Assembly (NCBI RefSeq): GCF_000186865.1
Contig: NW_008705563.1
Coordinates: 2,350,286 to 2,414,285 of the forward strand
From: Aureococcus anophagefferens
Taxonomy: Eukaryota > Sar > Pelagophyceae > Pelagomonadales > Pelagomonadaceae
Direction: 5' to 3'
DNA: 64,000 nucleotides
The first letter of the stretch is position 1. Each line of letters begins with the position of its first letter. The notes beneath the pieces were generated by a model. The model did not search any database, was not told the DNA's origin, and saw only the letters and a list, made by a program, of their open reading frames with translations. Position numbers and translations under genes: made by a program. Of this stretch, positions 46,604 to 62,677 are shown one piece after another.

Positions 46604-49600
46604 TTAGGAGGCCGGGCCCTCGTCGTGGGAGCGGCGCCGCCGGCTCTTGGGCCCCTCCTCGATGAGGGAGACGATGTCGGGCCAGGGGCTCGCGAAGCGG
46701 TCGCCGTCGCTGTTCGCGCGGCGCGGCCGGCCCTCGCCCCCCGCGAGGGCGCCGCCGCCCTCGCTGCGCGCGCGGCGCGGCCGCCCGTCGAAGGACCGCC
46801 GCCGCTCGTCGGCCGGCCGCCGGTCGTCGGGGCCCGCCGCGGCCCGGCGCCGCTCGTCCCCCTCGGCGAAGGGGTTCGCGGCGCCGTCGGCGATCTTGTC
46901 GAGCGTCGACGTCAGGTCCCGGACGGGGCTCCGGTCGCCCGCGTCCGGCGCGACGCGTTCGTCGAGCGCGCGCAACGCGCGCGCGAGCGCCGCGTCGTCG
47001 TTGAGCTTCCGGCGCGCCGCCGCGCGCGCGGCGCTCGCGCCGGGCGTCTCCGGCTCCGCGTCGAGGCGCGCGGCCGCCGCGGCGTGGCGCCCCGCGGCCG
47101 CCGCGAACGCTTTTCGCGACGTCTCGTAGGGCAGCCGCACGCCGTCGAGCGCGACGGCCGCGTCGACGAAGGCCCAGAGCGCCGCGGCCCAGAGGGCGTT
47201 GCGGTAGAGGAACGTCTCCGCGTCGACGTCGCCGAGCGCGGCGACCGCGGCGCGCGCCGCGTGGCCCACGTCCGGCGGCGGCGGCAGCAACCTCTCGGGG
47301 TCCCCCGCGAGGGGGTCCGCCGCCTTCTTCGCGGGGAGCCGCGCCAGCAGCTCGCGCTTGACGCGCGCCGCGTCCAGGTCCGCCGAGGCGAAGTCGAGGC
47401 CCGCGACCAAAGACGCGGCGTCGCGGACCGACGCGTCGACGCCCGCCGCGTTTCGCGCCGCGGCGAGGTCCGGCGCGCCCAAATGCGAGAGGAAGCGCCG
47501 CGCGGCCTCGAGTTTCTCGCGCGCCGGCGCGAGGACGCGCACGGCGTGGTCCCAGGCGCCCAAAGCCGCGGTCCTCGCGACGCCGCGCGCGACCCGGAGC
47601 GATTCGCGGTCGCGGAGCGCCGCGAGGCCCCGCCGCGCGTCGCCCGCGCGCCGCTCCAGCGCCGCCGCCGCCGCCGCCAGCACGTCCCGCGCCGCGGCGA
47701 CGTCCTCCCGCGACGGCGACGCGGCGACGAGCGCCTCGAGCGCGCGCCCGACCTTCGCGCCGGCCTTTGTTTTCGCCGCGCGCTCCGCGGCCAGCAACAG
47801 CGCGCCGGGCGACGGCGCGGNNNNNNNNNNNNNNNNNNNNNNNNNNNNNNNNNNNNNNNNNNNNNNNNNNATAGCCAATCGACTCGGACTTGACCGAGCT
47901 AGAGAATTTCAAAGTCTGGTCGGGAAGTCCCAAACCAGTGGTTGATTTCCACACAGGCGCCCACGACGGCGGGAACGCCTCGTCCTCGACGAGCTCGGCG
48001 ACGGCCGCGCCGTCGGCCCGGCGCACGGCGTCGCGGAGCATGCGCTGGGCGTAGGCCGCGTGCGCGGCGGCGTCGCCGGCGCGCGCCAGGGCCGCGCGCG
48101 GCAGCCTCGCGAGCCGCCGCGGCGCGCCGCCGCCGAGCGCCAGCTCGAGCTTCGCGCCGTCGAACGCGCCGCCGCCGGGCAGGGCGGCCGTCGCGCCCTT
48201 GGGTGCGCCGTCGACGGCGAGCGCGACGTCCCGCGGCAGCGGGATGCGCCGCCGGCGGCCCCAGTGGTCCACGCGGCTGCTCTCGACGAGCCAGAGGTGC
48301 GCCGTCGTCTCCGCGTGCTCCGCGCCGTCGCCCGCGGCGAGCTCCCCCCGCGCGTGGACCAGGCCCTGCTGGAGGTGGAGGAAGGCCTCGAGCCGCCCCT
48401 GGCACTGCTTGCCCTCGAGGTCCGGCGGGCTCGGCACGGTCTCGAGCGCCTCCTGCACGGCGAGGAGCGCGTCGCGCCGGCCCGACGGGTAGTCGGCGTC
48501 GGCCGCGAGGCACGCCGCGGCCCGGAGGAAGAGGCGCAGGGCCAGCGCGGAGACGCAGCCGCCGTCGGCGACGGCCGCGGCGCAGCCGCCGAAGCGCGAG
48601 CCGAGCAGCCGCCGCTCGACGTCCTCGACGCGCGAGTCGCCGCCGTCCGACCCCAGCGTCCGCGACGAGCCGCGGACCTCGAGGCCGTCGAAGCCCATGG
48701 CCGCCGACACGGGCGGCCCGAGGGGCGGCAACGGCGCGTGCGCGAGCGCCGCGCCGAGGACCGTACCGCCCCGGCCGAGCGCGGCGGCCTCCGCGGCCGC
48801 GGCCGCCGCGACGCGCCGCAGCAGCCGGCCCAGGCGCAGGAGCGAGAACGCGGCGCGCGCGCGCCAGCCGTCGCCGCGGCCGCAGCGGTCCCGGCACTCG
48901 CCGAGGAGCGTTGAGACGGACCGCGCGAGCGAGTACGCGGCCTGCTTCGCGAGCTTCGTCGCCCGGGACCGCGCGAGGGGCGCGGGCCCGACGCGCGCGA
49001 AGCAGAGCAGCGCCCCGGCGAAGGACTCGGCCTCGAAGCCGCGCGCGAGCGTGTTGCCCAGGTTGATGAGCGACGCGTCGCGGTACGACATCTTCCGCGC
49101 GGGCGACCGCCCGCTCGCGGGCCGCCGCGCGGGCGACGGCTCCTCCGAGGTCGCCGGCGGCGGCGGCTCGACGTCGTCGTCGTCGCCGTGGTCGCTTTCT
49201 TCGTCCGAGAGCTCGTCGGCGGCCTCGCCCCGGAGCATCTCCACAACCGCGCCGCCGTGCGCCGGCCGGTCCCGGGGCGCCGCCGCGAGGCAGGCCCGGA
49301 GCACGCGCCGGACGATCTTCGGCAGGGGATACGGCGCGAGGGCCGAGCGGAAGACGGCCCGGAGCTTCGCCGCGGCGACGTGCCGCAGGCCGCCGCGCCG
49401 CGCGAAGACGCGCGCCGACTCCTCGAACGGCGGGAGGCAGCTCTTGAGGATCGCGTCGCCGTCGAGCGACGCGCCGCGGCGCACGGCCGTGGACAGCTGC
49501 GCGAGGCCCTCGCCGTCGACGACCCGGGGCGGGGCCCAGGCCTTCTCCCGCGGCGACCCCTCGCGCGCCTTCGCCGCGCCGGCCGCGCCGTCGAGGAAGC

Positions 49601-57486: not shown

Positions 57487-58905
57487 TTAGAGCTGGTCCA
57501 TGACCCAGGTGAGGTGCGCGCGGAGCTGGCGCGCGGCCGCGTAGTCGAGGTCCCGGGGCACGCCGACGCGCCTCCGGAGGTAGTCGAGCGCGGCCTTGGT
57601 CGGCTCCGCGGACTCGGCGCCGTCGGCGTCGTTCTTCGCGACGGCGTTGCCGTCGACGCCGTGGAGGAGCGCCGCCGCCGCGTGGCGCAGCGCCGCGTCG
57701 ACGTCGGCCTCGTGCCAGCGCACGGGGCTCGCGTTGTTCGGGTCCGCCAGCGGCGCCGTCACCGGCGGCACGCCCGGCGGCGCGTGCGCGCGCATCGCGA
57801 AGGTCGCGACGGCGTCGCGGTTCTCGACGAGGCGCCGCGCGGCCGCGCGCCGCGCGGCGCCGTCGTCGCGCGCGCCGACGAGGGGCTGGAGCGGCGCCGC
57901 GTCGAGCGCGTCCAAAGTCCACTCGCCGCCGTCGAGGGCCGCGCGGAACGGCTCGCCGCCGGCCTCGGGCGAGCAGCCGCCGAGCTGCGGCGGCAGGTCC
58001 ATCGCGTGCGTGTAGTAGTCGGACTGCGACGCCCGGAACGACGCCCGCGACTCCATGGCGTCGAACCACGCCGCGACGCCCGGGTAGGCCTCGGCGTCGC
58101 GGACCCGGAAGCCCTTGTAGTAGAGCAACGACGCCTCCGCGCGCTCGAGGAACGAGCAGAAGAGGAGGTCGACGAGGCTCAGCTCCTCGCCGAGGAAGAA
58201 GCCGCCCGCCGTGGACCTCAGGAACCCGTCGACCCGCGACAGCTGGCCCTCGAAGGTCGACCGCGCGCCGCCGCCGACGCCCGGGGGCGCGCGGAGCCAG
58301 CCCAGCCACGCGGACCCGAGCTGCCGCTCGAGGCCCATGAGGTCGCGGATGTCGTCGACGCCGCCCGGCGGGAGCAGCGACCTGTCGCCGCCGAACTCGC
58401 GCTCCAGCGCGAGCATGATGGACACGCTGTCCGTGATGAGGCGGCCGTCGAGCTCGACGACCGGCAGCAGGCCGCCCGCGTCGCGCTCGAACCACGCGGG
58501 CTTCGAGCCGTAGCAGCGCATGTTGATGCGCTCCACCCGGTAGGGGATGCGCTTCTCCTCGAGCTGCATCCAGACCTTCTGGCAGTAGGGGCACCAGCTC
58601 GACCCGTCGCGGTACAGGGTGACGCGCGGCTCGTAGCCGTCCTTCTCGTCGAAGAGCCGCAGGTTCGCGGACGCGCTCGGCGGCCCGCGGCCGGACGCGA
58701 CGAGCGACGCGAAACCGGCCTCCTCAGTCGTCGACTGCGCCTCGAGGCTCGCCGCCAGCGCCTCCCAGGTCGGCGCGCGGTCCAGCACCAGCGCCGAGGG
58801 CGGCGCCTTCTGCCGCAACAGATCCGCCGCCTTGCCGACCCAACCCTTGCCGCCGGACAGCGCCGACGCGGCGCAGCCGAGGGTGAGGATGCGCAGCATG
58901 AGCAT
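57487..58905 (-). CDS. glutathione S-transferase-like protein, copy A (intact)
   Basis: 472 residues from MLMLRILTLGCAASALSGGK (signal or plastid-leader-like start). The thioredoxin-fold half has VTLYRDGSSWCPYCQKVWMQLEEKRIPYRVERINM with a glutaredoxin-like W104-CPYC pair, KPAWFERDAGGLLPVVELDGRLITDSVSIMLALE (cis-Pro and DS glutathione-contact motifs), as in omega-type GSTs. The helical half (QLSRVDGFLRSTAGGFFLGEELSLVDLLFCSFLERA, GVAAWFDAMESRASFRAS) follows. About 160 extra C-terminal residues are unlike standard GSTs. Two active-site Cys suggest thioltransferase activity. This copy lacks the introner found in copy B. Confidence 0.88.
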   Translation of the reverse strand: MLMLRILTLGCAASALSGGKGWVGKAADLLRQKAPPSALVLDRAPTWEALAASLEAQSTTEEAGFASLVASGRGPPSASANLRLFDEKDGYEPRVTLYRDGSSWCPYCQKVWMQLEEKRIPYRVERINMRCYGSKPAWFERDAGGLLPVVELDGRLITDSVSIMLALEREFGGDRSLLPPGGVDDIRDLMGLERQLGSAWLGWLRAPPGVGGGARSTFEGQLSRVDGFLRSTAGGFFLGEELSLVDLLFCSFLERAEASLLYYKGFRVRDAEAYPGVAAWFDAMESRASFRASQSDYYTHAMDLPPQLGGCSPEAGGEPFRAALDGGEWTLDALDAAPLQPLVGARDDGAARRAAARRLVENRDAVATFAMRAHAPPGVPPVTAPLADPNNASPVRWHEADVDAALRHAAAALLHGVDGNAVAKNDADGAESAEPTKAALDYLRRRVGVPRDLDYAAARQLRAHLTWVMDQL

Positions 58906-59093: not shown

Positions 59094-60161
59094 CTAGAGT
59101 CCGCGCGCGTCGAGTTGGGCGAGGACACCGCGGGCCTTCTCGGCGATCTCGACGTTCGTGCCCGCCGCCGCGCGCTCGAGCCAGGGGCGGGCTGCGACGT
59201 AGTCCGGGCGCCCGCCAACCATACCGTTCACGTACATAACAGCGATGCCATATATCGCATGGGCGTAGCCCTGCTTCGCTGACAGCAGAAACAGCCGCAT
59301 GGCCTCGTCGTACTTTCCCTCTTTGCGCACGCCCATTGCGAGATTGCACTGTGCCGCCGCGTCACCCCGATCCACGGCCATGCGATAGAGCTGCCTCGCC
59401 TTGTTCAGGTCCATCTTCACGCCGAGTCCGAGACCGTAAAGAGCGCCCAGTGCGTTCATTGCATCTACGTTTCCGAGCTCGACGGCGCGTTTGTAGAGCT
59501 TTGCGGCCTTCTTCGCTGATTTCACGAGCCCGAACGCGCCGTCGCGGTAGAAGTGCCCCAAATACAAGATCGCGTCTGGGACTTCGTTCTCCGCGTGGCG
59601 ACGTATGCCCGCCACGTATGCCTCTTTACTCTTCGGATATGGTGCACGGCACAGAGCGCACGGTTGCTTCCCGTGCTTTTCGTTGCACCGAGTGCAGATC
59701 GTCCGAGCGCAACATGGAGTCATTTCGAAGTGGTAGTTCACGTCCCAGTCCTCGTAGCAAATCGGGCATCGCGAGCCTTGGCGCGTGGATAATGGCTCCG
59801 GCTCCGGGTTCGCCTCGCGCCGCGCCCGCGCCGCCTCGTGCTCCGCGGCGATGCGCGCGCGGACCTCGTCGGCGTGCGACCGCGGCGCGGGGCCGTAGAC
59901 GACGTCCCGCGGGGGCGGCGTCGGGGCCTCCGCCTCCGCCGCGCGTTCGTCTCGAATTTTCTTACAGGCCTTCCGGTGGCCCCGCTCGCGCCAGTCGATG
60001 CGTTGGCAGGCGACCGTACAATATTGAGCCGTGCCGCAGGGGCATGGGAGCTTCGCTTTCGCCGAGCAAATCGTGCACAGCTTGCGGAGCTTGGCGTTCT
60101 TCGCCCGGGCCATTCGCTGTTCATACTCCCGCTTTTTCACCATCCACTCAGGCTCCTTCAT
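59094..60161 (-). CDS. MYND/RING-like/Sel1-repeat protein, copy A (5' end uncertain)
   Basis: First available ATG (60161) gives MKEPEWMVKKREYEQRMARA, 355 residues. The frame is open upstream to the gap (VLSGGDEHDE) but without the ATG present in copy B, so the start may be lost or lie in the N-run. Domains: MYND finger (CTICSAKAKLPCPCGTAQYC...C...H...C), Arg/Glu linker with TPPPRDVVYGPAPR, RING-like finger (CPICYEDWDVNYHFEMTPCCARTIC...CALC), and four Sel1 repeats (AAKLYKRAVELGNVDAMNALGALYGLGLGV and others). Probably a scaffold or ubiquitin-linked adaptor. Third codon positions are visibly less GC-rich than in neighbouring genes. Confidence 0.85.
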   Translation of the reverse strand: MKEPEWMVKKREYEQRMARAKNAKLRKLCTICSAKAKLPCPCGTAQYCTVACQRIDWRERGHRKACKKIRDERAAEAEAPTPPPRDVVYGPAPRSHADEVRARIAAEHEAARARREANPEPEPLSTRQGSRCPICYEDWDVNYHFEMTPCCARTICTRCNEKHGKQPCALCRAPYPKSKEAYVAGIRRHAENEVPDAILYLGHFYRDGAFGLVKSAKKAAKLYKRAVELGNVDAMNALGALYGLGLGVKMDLNKARQLYRMAVDRGDAAAQCNLAMGVRKEGKYDEAMRLFLLSAKQGYAHAIYGIAVMYVNGMVGGRPDYVAARPWLERAAAGTNVEIAEKARGVLAQLDARGL

Positions 60162-60208
60162 CTCGTCGTGCTCGTCTCCCCCCGATAGGACCCCGCACCA
60201 AAAATCGC

Positions 60209-60258
60209 NNNNNNNNNNNNNNNNNNNNNNNNNNNNNNNNNNNNNNNNNNNNNNNNNN
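60209..60258. other. assembly gap (50 N) at the duplication boundary
   Basis: A round 50-base N-run between the MYND copy A 5' end and the middle of GST copy B. It probably reflects collapse or mis-join of near-identical tandem units. Confidence 0.98.
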
Positions 60259-61217
60259 AGAAGAGGAGGTCGACGAGGCTCAGCTCCTCGCCGAGGAAGA
60301 AGCCGCCCGCCGTGGACCTCAGGAACCCGTCGACCCGCGACAGCTGGCCCTCGAAGGTCGACCGCGCGCCGCCGCCGACGCCCGGGGGCGCGCGGAGCCA
60401 GCCCAGCCACGCGGACCCGAGCTGCCGCCTGTGTGCGAAACAACCACTGGTTTGGGACGTCCCGACCAAAGTTTGAAATTCTCTAGCTCGGTCAATTCGG
60501 AGTCGATTTGGCTGATTTTTGGATGGATCGATTGCTCTTGTCCAGTTCTCGAAGCACGGTGGAAATTTTTGTGTCAAAACATTCGAATACGCTCACATTG
60601 AAGTCGGGTTGAAGATTTGATTGCCACACAGGCTCCCGCTCGAGGCCCATGAGGTCGCGGATGTCGTCGACGCCGCCCGGCGGGAGCAGCGACCTGTCGC
60701 CGCCGAACTCGCGCTCCAGCGCGAGCATGATGGACACGCTGTCCGTGATGAGCCGGCCGTCGAGCTCGACGACCGGCAGCAGGCCGCCCGCGTCGCGCTC
60801 GAACCACGCGGGCTTCGAGCCGTAGCAGCGCATGTTGATGCGCTCCACCCTGTAGGGGATGCGCTTCTCCTCGAGCTGCATCCAGACCTTCTGGCAGTAG
60901 GGGCACCAGCTCGACCCGTCGCGGTACAGGGTGACGCGCGGCTCGTAGCCGTCCGGCTCGTCGAAGAGCCGCAGGTTCGCGGACGCGCTCGGCGGCCCGC
61001 GGCCGGACGCGACGAGCGACGCGAAACCGGCCTCCTCCGTCGTCGACTGCGCCTCGAGGCTCGCCGCCAGCGCCTCCCAGGTCGGCGCGCGGTCCAGCAC
61101 CAGCGCCGAGGGCGGCGCCTTCTGCCGCAACAGATCCGCCGCCTTGCCGACCCAACCCTTGCCGCCGGACAGCGCCGACGCGGCGCAGCCGAGGGTGAGG
61201 ATGCGCAGCATGAGCAT
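60259..61217 (-). CDS. GST-like protein, copy B, interrupted by an introner and truncated by a gap
   Basis: Starts MLMLRILTLG at 61217, and the N-terminal 190 residues match copy A almost exactly, including SSWCPYCQKVW. At GLE|R the reading is broken by a 211-nt intron-like insert (60639-60429). Removing it with the GC donor and the AG end restores LERQLGSAWLGW exactly as in copy A. The exon then continues to GEELSLVDLLF and runs into the N-run. About 224 C-terminal codons are unseen. It may be a full gene cut by misassembly or a truncated copy. Confidence 0.85.
60421..60639 (-). mobile_element. introner-like element with 8-bp target-site duplication
   Basis: Element 60429-60631 (203 bp) begins CTGTGTGCG and ends CCACACAG, giving inverted termini CTGTGTG/CACACAG. 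It is flanked by 8-bp repeats GCTGCCGC (60421-60428) and GCTCCCGC (60632-60639), one mismatch. The undisturbed site GAGCTGCCGCTCGAGG is present in copy A near 58317-58332. On the coding strand the first target copy supplies GC as 5' splice site, and the element's terminal ACACAG supplies the 3' splice site. No transposase frame: non-autonomous. Less GC-rich than flanking exons. Confidence 0.9.
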
Positions 61218-61570: not shown

Positions 61571-62677
61571 CTAGAGTCCGCGCGCGTCGAGTTGGGCGAG
61601 GACAACGCGGGCCTTCTCGACGACCTCGTCGTCCGTGCCCGCCGCCGCGCGCTCGAGCCAGGGGCGGGCTGCGACGTAGTCCGGGCGCCCGCCAACCATA
61701 CCGCTCATGTACATAAAACCGATGCCATATATCGCAGTGGCGTAGCCCTGCTTCGCTGACAGCAGAAACAGCCGCATGGCCTCGTCGTACTTTCCCTCTT
61801 TGCGCAAGCCCATTGCGAGATTGCTCTGTGCGTTCGCGTCACCCCGATCCACGGCCATGCGATAGAGCTGCCTCGCCTTGTTCGGGTCCATCTTCACGCC
61901 GAGTCCGAGACCGTAAAGAGCGCCCAATGCTGTCATTGCATGTACGTTTCCGAGCTCGACGGCGCGTTTGTAGAGCTTTGCGGCCTTCTTCTCTGATTTC
62001 ACGAGGCCGTACGCGCCGTCCCGGTAGAAGTTCCCCAAATACAAGACCGCGTCTGGGACTTCGTTCTCCGCGTGGCGACGTATGCCCGCCACGTATGCCT
62101 CATTGCTCTCCGGATATGGTGCACGGCACAGAGCGCACGGTTGCTTCCCGTGCTTAATGTGGCACCGAGTGCAGATCGTCCGAGCGCAACATGGAGTCAT
62201 TTCGAAGTGAAAGTTCACGTCCCAATCCTCGTAGCAAATCGGGCATCGCGAGCCTTGGCGCGCGGACAATGGCTCCGGCTCCGGGTTCGCCTCGCGCCGC
62301 GCCCGCGCCGCCTCGTGCTCCGCGGCGATGCGCGCGCGGACCTCGTCGGCGCCCGACCGCGGCGCGGGGCCGTAGACGACGTCCCGCGGGGGCGGCGTCG
62401 GGGCCTCCGCCCGCGCCGCCTCCGCCGCGCGCTCGTCTCGAATTTTCTTACAGGCCTTCCGGTGCCCGCGGTCGCGCCAATCGATCTTCTGACAGGCAAC
62501 TGTGCAGTACTGAGCAGTTCCGCAGGGGCATGGGAGCTTCGCCTTCTCCCCGCAAATCGTGCACAGCGTGCGGAGCTTGGCGTTCTTCGCCCGGGCCATT
62601 CGCTGTTCATACTCCCGCTTTTTCACCATCCACTCAGGCTCCTTCATCTCGTCGTGCTCGTCTCCCCCCGAGGCCAT
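61571..62677 (-). CDS. MYND/RING-like/Sel1-repeat protein, copy B (complete)
   Basis: 368 residues from MASGGDEHDEMKEPEWM; an ATG at 62722 adds 15. MYND finger at about 39-76 (CTICGEKAKLPCPCGTAQYCTVAC...RGHRKAC), RING-like finger at about 150-190 (CPICYEDWDVNFHFEMTPCCARTICTRC...CALC), then four Sel1 helices pairs (VPDAVLYLGNFYRDGAYGLVKSEKKAAKLYKRA, HAMTALGALYGLGLGVKMDPNKARQLYRMA, ANAQSNLAMGLRKEGKYDEAMRLF, TAIYGIGFMYMSGMVGG...AARPWLERAA). Sel1 arrays scaffold complexes such as ERAD ligases; a role with ubiquitin is inferred. It carries A/T-ending codons more often than other genes here. Confidence 0.9.
   Translation of the reverse strand: MASGGDEHDEMKEPEWMVKKREYEQRMARAKNAKLRTLCTICGEKAKLPCPCGTAQYCTVACQKIDWRDRGHRKACKKIRDERAAEAARAEAPTPPPRDVVYGPAPRSGADEVRARIAAEHEAARARREANPEPEPLSARQGSRCPICYEDWDVNFHFEMTPCCARTICTRCHIKHGKQPCALCRAPYPESNEAYVAGIRRHAENEVPDAVLYLGNFYRDGAYGLVKSEKKAAKLYKRAVELGNVHAMTALGALYGLGLGVKMDPNKARQLYRMAVDRGDANAQSNLAMGLRKEGKYDEAMRLFLLSAKQGYATAIYGIGFMYMSGMVGGRPDYVAARPWLERAAAGTDDEVVEKARVVLAQLDARGL

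Follow-up and report, generated by a model that had tools for sequence, protein, structure and literature searches.

One of two tandem glutathione S-transferase (GST) genes of Aureococcus anophagefferens, here called copy B, very probably carries a 203-bp introner, a short transposable element that would act as an intron by taking a GC donor from the duplicated target and an AG acceptor from its own end, and whose predicted splicing is exact. The gene lies in the window, that is, the whole stretch of 64,000 nucleotides analysed, which belongs to the 49-Mb, 86-contig assembly that was searched as the genome. Residues 317-558 of the A. anophagefferens protein AURANDRAFT_36347 are encoded in this assembly at 100% identity, and the first 345 residues of that protein have their best match, at 94%, close by. 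In the window the minus strand carries two tandem units, each consisting of a GST gene and a MYND/Sel1 gene. The relevant features are:

57487..58905, minus strand: GST copy A, an intact intronless ORF of 472 aa; the insertion site falls between the GST_N and GST_C domain matches
58320..58327, minus strand: uninterrupted target site in GST copy A, gctgccgc
59094..60184, minus strand: MYND/Sel1 gene, copy A of the duplicated unit
60209..60258, no strand: 50-N gap, with the C-terminal part of GST copy B missing
60259..60428, minus strand: known part of exon 2 of GST copy B, 100% identical to copy A and ended by the gap
60421..60428, minus strand: exon-side (3') 8-bp target copy, GCGGCAGC on the gene strand, which opens exon 2
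60429..60631, minus strand: introner element, 203 bp, ends CTGTGTG...CACACAG, on the same strand as the GST gene
60429..60639, minus strand: predicted 211-nt GC-AG intron, phase 2, preceded by 578 coding bases
60632..60639, minus strand: intron-side (5') 8-bp target copy, GCGGGAGC on the gene strand, which would give the GC donor
60640..61217, minus strand: exon 1 of GST copy B
61571..62677, minus strand: MYND/Sel1 gene, copy B of the duplicated unit, dS 0.096 against copy A

The element, which the original prediction had described at this place with the same length and ends, reads CTGTGTGGCAAT...TTCGCACACAG on the gene strand and has perfect 7-bp inverted ends. The 8-bp flanking repeats that had been reported with it are likewise present, but they match at only 7 of 8 positions (forward strand, gctgccgc at 60421-60428 and gctcccgc at 60632-60639), and the sole mismatch, at 60635, had gone unmentioned. 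This base occupies intron position +5 and differs both from the exon-side repeat and from GST copy A, which contains GCGGCAGC once on the gene strand, as the empty counterpart 2.1 to 2.3 kb away that had been claimed. In silico omission of 60639-60429 leaves an open frame with an exact target and restores the coding sequence in comparison with copy A, in agreement with the earlier reading of the exon; 5 bases out of 748 set the joined sequence apart from copy A, at the equivalents of copy-A positions 58441, 58539, 58643-58644 and 58726, and two of them together produce the only changed residue, K88P. As copy B meets the 50-N gap 170 bp beyond the insert, its C-terminal part is unseen. The predicted intron folds less stably as RNA than most shuffled sequences (193 of 200 shuffles fold at least as well, z 1.87).

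A search with the GST gene found three other places in the genome. Two of these, L052 and L053, are 43% and 39% identical and align through the insertion site without interruption, and for the third, a 57-base match, no protein alignment was obtained. Three outside sequences, P0001 to P0003, also read through the site, and P0003 carries the copy-B residue P88; it is either a spliced message or an empty copy-B allele. We propose that GST copy B received a short non-autonomous DNA transposon, one of the Aureococcus introners, whose insertion left an 8-bp target duplication; that the pre-mRNA would be cut ahead of the GC with which the first target copy begins and behind the AG at the close of the element; and that splicing would thereby remove 211 nt and restore the GST reading frame exactly. 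The insertion would have followed the split of copies A and B, because copy A and the two distant paralogues are empty, and would itself have been followed by a C-to-G change at intron +5 in the donor copy, a direction assigned because the exon-side repeat and copy A keep C. The insert in copy B thus probably works as a removable intron, to judge from sequence comparison.

Two side observations concern the surroundings of the locus. The window contains a second introner at 47875-47956, which ends in CACACAG and whose 5' part is cut off by a 50-N gap. The MYND/Sel1 neighbours of the GST copies belong to a gene family that is very large in this genome, with at least 80 matches, often closely spaced.

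Introner families and the origin of the splice sites

Two 24-base patterns taken from the element gave 173 and 1,379 matches in the genome, the latter counted at up to 2 mismatches to the 24-base core, and the reversed controls gave none; hence the insert is not a chance sequence. The copies analysed are a non-random sample, with 60 places fetched among 100 listed out of the 1,379 core matches; for the 173-match pattern 59 regions were fetched, from 100 places listed, and 30 of the 100 were cut out. The genome search and copy alignment that had been suggested for defining termini and target length yielded 114 full-length copies, delimited by means of their terminal repeats. Their 8-bp flanks match at 89% of positions and are perfect in 68 of the 114, while flanks of 5, 6, 7, 9, 10 or 11 bp match at only 19-35%, and the element measures 203 bp in 78 of them. 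With inverted ends, an 8-bp target duplication and more than a thousand related cores, the assignment to introner-type DNA transposons stands.

An HMM recovered 277 hits, from which removal of 35 duplicates, 9 short hits and 7 without boundaries left 226 bounded elements; for a boundary, 5 or more of the 8 target bases had to match, with preference given to ends of the C.G form. These comprise 159 members of the first family, to which the GST element belongs, 31 of a second family, and 36 that belong to neither or are misplaced and were unused. The second family shares the core of the first but has other ends, CTGGGCAG...CTGCCCTG (L150-L169), and is mostly read from the strand opposite to the first, which is the strand ending in AG. 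Further end variants exist, since L203, L129 and L004 combine the introner core with ends of still other kinds (CTGTGCCGAATT..., CCGTGCCGCATT... and CCGGGCGGGAAACA..., respectively). Four elements, L006, L008, L024 and L093, have 9-bp matching flanks, those of L024 appearing by eye to be mutually reverse-complementary. Of the 190 family members, 8 were set aside because under 6 of their 8 target bases matched and 2 for want of clean flanks, which left 180 elements; the direction of the host gene was assigned confidently for 143 of these and unsurely for 37. Gene direction was taken from coding content in up to 100 bp of flank per side, with the element ends unused and codons touching the target unscored.

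A comparison of the two ends relative to gene direction showed that: 1) the donor side of the duplicated target begins with GY in 141 of the 143 insertions, against 44 of 143 at the other end (Fisher p 1e-38). 2) The acceptor end of the element shows AG in 142 of 143, against 90 at the other end. 3) In the first family AG is present at 121 of 121 acceptor ends and 89 of 121 other ends; because elements were admitted to it on the resemblance of their ends to CTGTGTG and CACACAG, AG is by that choice frequent at either end, and the evidence from this family is the contrast between the two. 4) In the second family the corresponding figures are 21 of 22 and 1 of 22. 5) With all 180 elements included, GY occurs on 172 donor sides and 64 other sides, and AG at 178 acceptor ends and 112 other ends. 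First-family elements, which mostly end in AG on both strands, lie in the two orientations 71 and 50 times among 121; of the 22 of the second family, which mostly end so on one strand, 19 follow that direction (Fisher p 1e-4). As GY and AG are asymmetric between the ends, the donor would come from the target and the acceptor from the element end, as had been predicted for copy B and as would now apply to the family. Among the 143 confident insertions 74 donors are GC and 67 are GT; GC donors are therefore ordinary in this family, and that of GST copy B is not odd. The GY/AG pattern is what selection for clean splicing would be expected to leave. A pure insertion preference for GY was rejected, since it should be symmetric, and an apparent palindromic target (GY....RC), a preference of P-superfamily elements, is attributed to pooling of both insertion directions; GY does stand at the non-donor end in 44 of the 143 insertions.

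Competing readings and the age of the insertion

Three other accounts of the locus itself appear improbable to different degrees. Copies A and B could be alleles or the product of misjoined contigs, the insertion then being a polymorphism rather than a difference between paralogues. The 50-N gap between the two units would permit this, but the neighbouring MYND/Sel1 copies differ at 63 of 1,086 bases, the spacer contains large indels, and the 22 bases at 60187-60208 that follow MYND copy A are unlike the sequence after copy B and occur only once in the window at up to 3 mismatches; we consider this account unlikely. Somewhat less probable again is that the insert goes unspliced and that copy B is a transposon-broken pseudogene. 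A retained insert does bring in-frame stop codons, and the tail of P0003 looks frameshifted by eye after residue 327. Set against these are the gene-strand GY/AG pattern across the 143 insertions, which fits selection for splicing, and the known part of copy B, which is otherwise open and differs by one amino acid. Least probable, though by little, is splicing of copy B between a GT inside the element end and an AG inside the second target copy. This would remove 208 nt and replace Q by EP, adding one residue, and the pair is canonical GT-AG, in frame and stop-free; yet across the family it is the two opening bases of the target that serve as donor, GC donors are common in it, and the AG in the copy-B target is presumably there by chance. 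The introner insertion with a target-derived GC donor and exact predicted splicing accordingly keeps by far the largest share of our confidence.

The original prediction further held that the insertion was recent and could be dated, and neither part is supported. The dS between the two GST copies is 0.016, against 0.096 between the adjacent duplicated MYND/Sel1 copies, and the spacer has diverged. P0001 and P0002 are identical over their first 200 residues but share only 17 to 30 residues per 40-column block at columns 321-440; they form a mosaic pair, and GST copies seem from such comparisons to exchange sequence. On these three grounds the GST exons have probably been homogenised, and their near-identity is unreliable as a clock; we accordingly dropped a date for the insertion based on it. 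The element has a terminal branch of 0.056-0.082, rank 140 of 159 from the shortest, and its closest other copy, the best of 40 scored among 1,655 candidates, is 92% identical. A missing source copy could account for the long branch; even so, this branch and the lack of a close relative among the scored copies fit poorly with a very recent insertion.

L052 and L053 are uninterrupted at the site, which makes the empty state the ancestral one; the same paralogues leave the order of insertion and A/B duplication unset. The post-duplication gain is the simplest history, requiring no loss. A substantial minority of our confidence nevertheless goes to a live rival, an older insertion that predates the last homogenisation of the GST exons or even the duplication, copy A then being empty because conversion passed over the insert or because that copy lost the element exactly, for example through recombination with a spliced cDNA. 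The dS contrast, the block pattern of P0001 and P0002 and the rank of the terminal branch all favour such an age. On the other side are the distant paralogues, which lack the insert; the A/B identity, which stays high beyond the start codon and so gives no special support to a cDNA-derived copy A; and two unremarkable measures of the element, namely its 9.4% distance to the family consensus (rank 57 of 104, about the median) and its 5 rare bases against a sample median of 3.

Donor change after insertion

The mismatch at 60635 has counterparts across the family, the two target copies differing in 47 of 179 insertions with distinct flanks. Since the duplication leaves a reference copy at every introner, evolution of the donor after its birth can be read there without an outgroup. 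Differences at +3 to +6 place G in the intron-side copy in 23 cases and in the exon-side copy in 5 (sign-flip p 0.002, pooled). G was chosen as the test base after inspection of the first set, which has 16 to 2 (p 0.001); the later set has 7 to 3, not significant by itself (p 0.34). With confident directions only, the bias is 18 to 5 (p 0.011), and at +5 alone 7 to 0. There is no clear excess of changes toward GTRAGT at +2 to +6 (16 toward, 11 away), and element interiors show no gene-strand excess of G (475 changes to G, 464 to C). The excess of intron-side G is thus suggestive only as a sign of donor maturation. We put forward, as a possibility that we hold to be doubtful, that these introns are born in two steps: insertion first creates a minimal GY...AG intron, after which the target copy inside the intron becomes a stronger donor and the one in the exon preserves the codon. 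If this is true, the change from C to G at +5 in the GST pair would be a polarised instance of the process, which the 47 of 179 insertions would record family-wide. In a literature search not aimed at this point we recognised no treatment of donor change after introner insertion. As a separate observation, the target copies differ at +2 in 5 of the 179 insertions, and 4 of these have T on the exon side and C on the intron side, contrary to a drift from GC to GT donors.

Known introners and transposase leads

Huff, Zilberman and Roy are said to have described the introner elements of Aureococcus anophagefferens in 2016. That introners were already described in Aureococcus, as the original prediction stated, is borne out by published work, which gives the mechanism for this species. 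PMC9860276 refers to Huff et al. 2016 for the target duplications and inverted repeats of algal introners, and speaks of introner families that bring a 3' site of their own and take the 5' one from the target. A passage of PMC10228655 on Micromonas and Aureococcus has Huff et al. stating that introners largely co-opt splice sites and are inserted in both orientations, and PMC9481584 gives a characteristic introner length of around 210 bp in A. anophagefferens. The elements described here share with the known ones a length near 210 bp, terminal inverted repeats, a target duplication, one splice site each from element and target, and both insertion directions. The GST locus differs only in detail, in that it keeps an empty site in the neighbouring tandem copy and one of its target copies has already mutated at +5. 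For A. anophagefferens introners PMC7789003 speaks of canonical splicing motifs, whereas about half of the donors in the copies sampled here are GC. Family 4 of Aureococcus sp. (TARA_AOS_82_MAG_00129), which PMC9860276 shows against an empty orthologue, shares the 8-bp target duplication in a pelagophyte gene, but brings both splice sites with it and lengthens the message by 12 bp, while excision from GST copy B is predicted to be exact. The introner in GST copy B is hence a further member of a described kind, and its mechanism is not new. With nearly the same exon present in a single genome both filled and empty, the GST pair offers a clean test bed for the accuracy and cost of splicing, which are directly measurable there.

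Target duplications of 8 bp occur in other superfamilies besides the P superfamily. The introners share this length with P-superfamily transposons, for which PMC7776569 also describes internally deleted copies. Searches for hAT (PF05699), KDZ (PF18758) and MULE (PF10551) domains gave no match in the genome, and those for hAT and KDZ none in the control genomes either. P-type transposase genes are present at three places, one recognised by PF21787 and two more by protein search, but in the 3.4-4.2 kb examined around these places (four loci, of which L147 includes 1,404 bases of N) there is no exact CTGTGTG or CACACAG, and longer introner end patterns find only 3-mismatch matches there.

The gene recognised by its domain, at L146:1087-3060 (G000:C25, about 177958-179930), is P-type transposase-like (PF21787, E 2.9e-12), and its first part is open only with readthrough of 7 in-frame TAG codons. 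The stretch adjoining the transposase domain matches positions 19-141 of the introner model (E 3e-14) without introner ends, and the part after it has no Pfam match and looks transposase-like by eye. An end-like motif at L146:2905 was dropped, as it lies within coding sequence as read by eye. The introner-like stretch may be an old nested introner or may reflect shared ancestry; to the second of these we give a small chance. Both of the other places, L148 and L149, lie close to contig ends (G000:C2 and G000:C11) and have P-type transposase-like long open frames, and their 3,849-base stretches are the same except for 3 bases.
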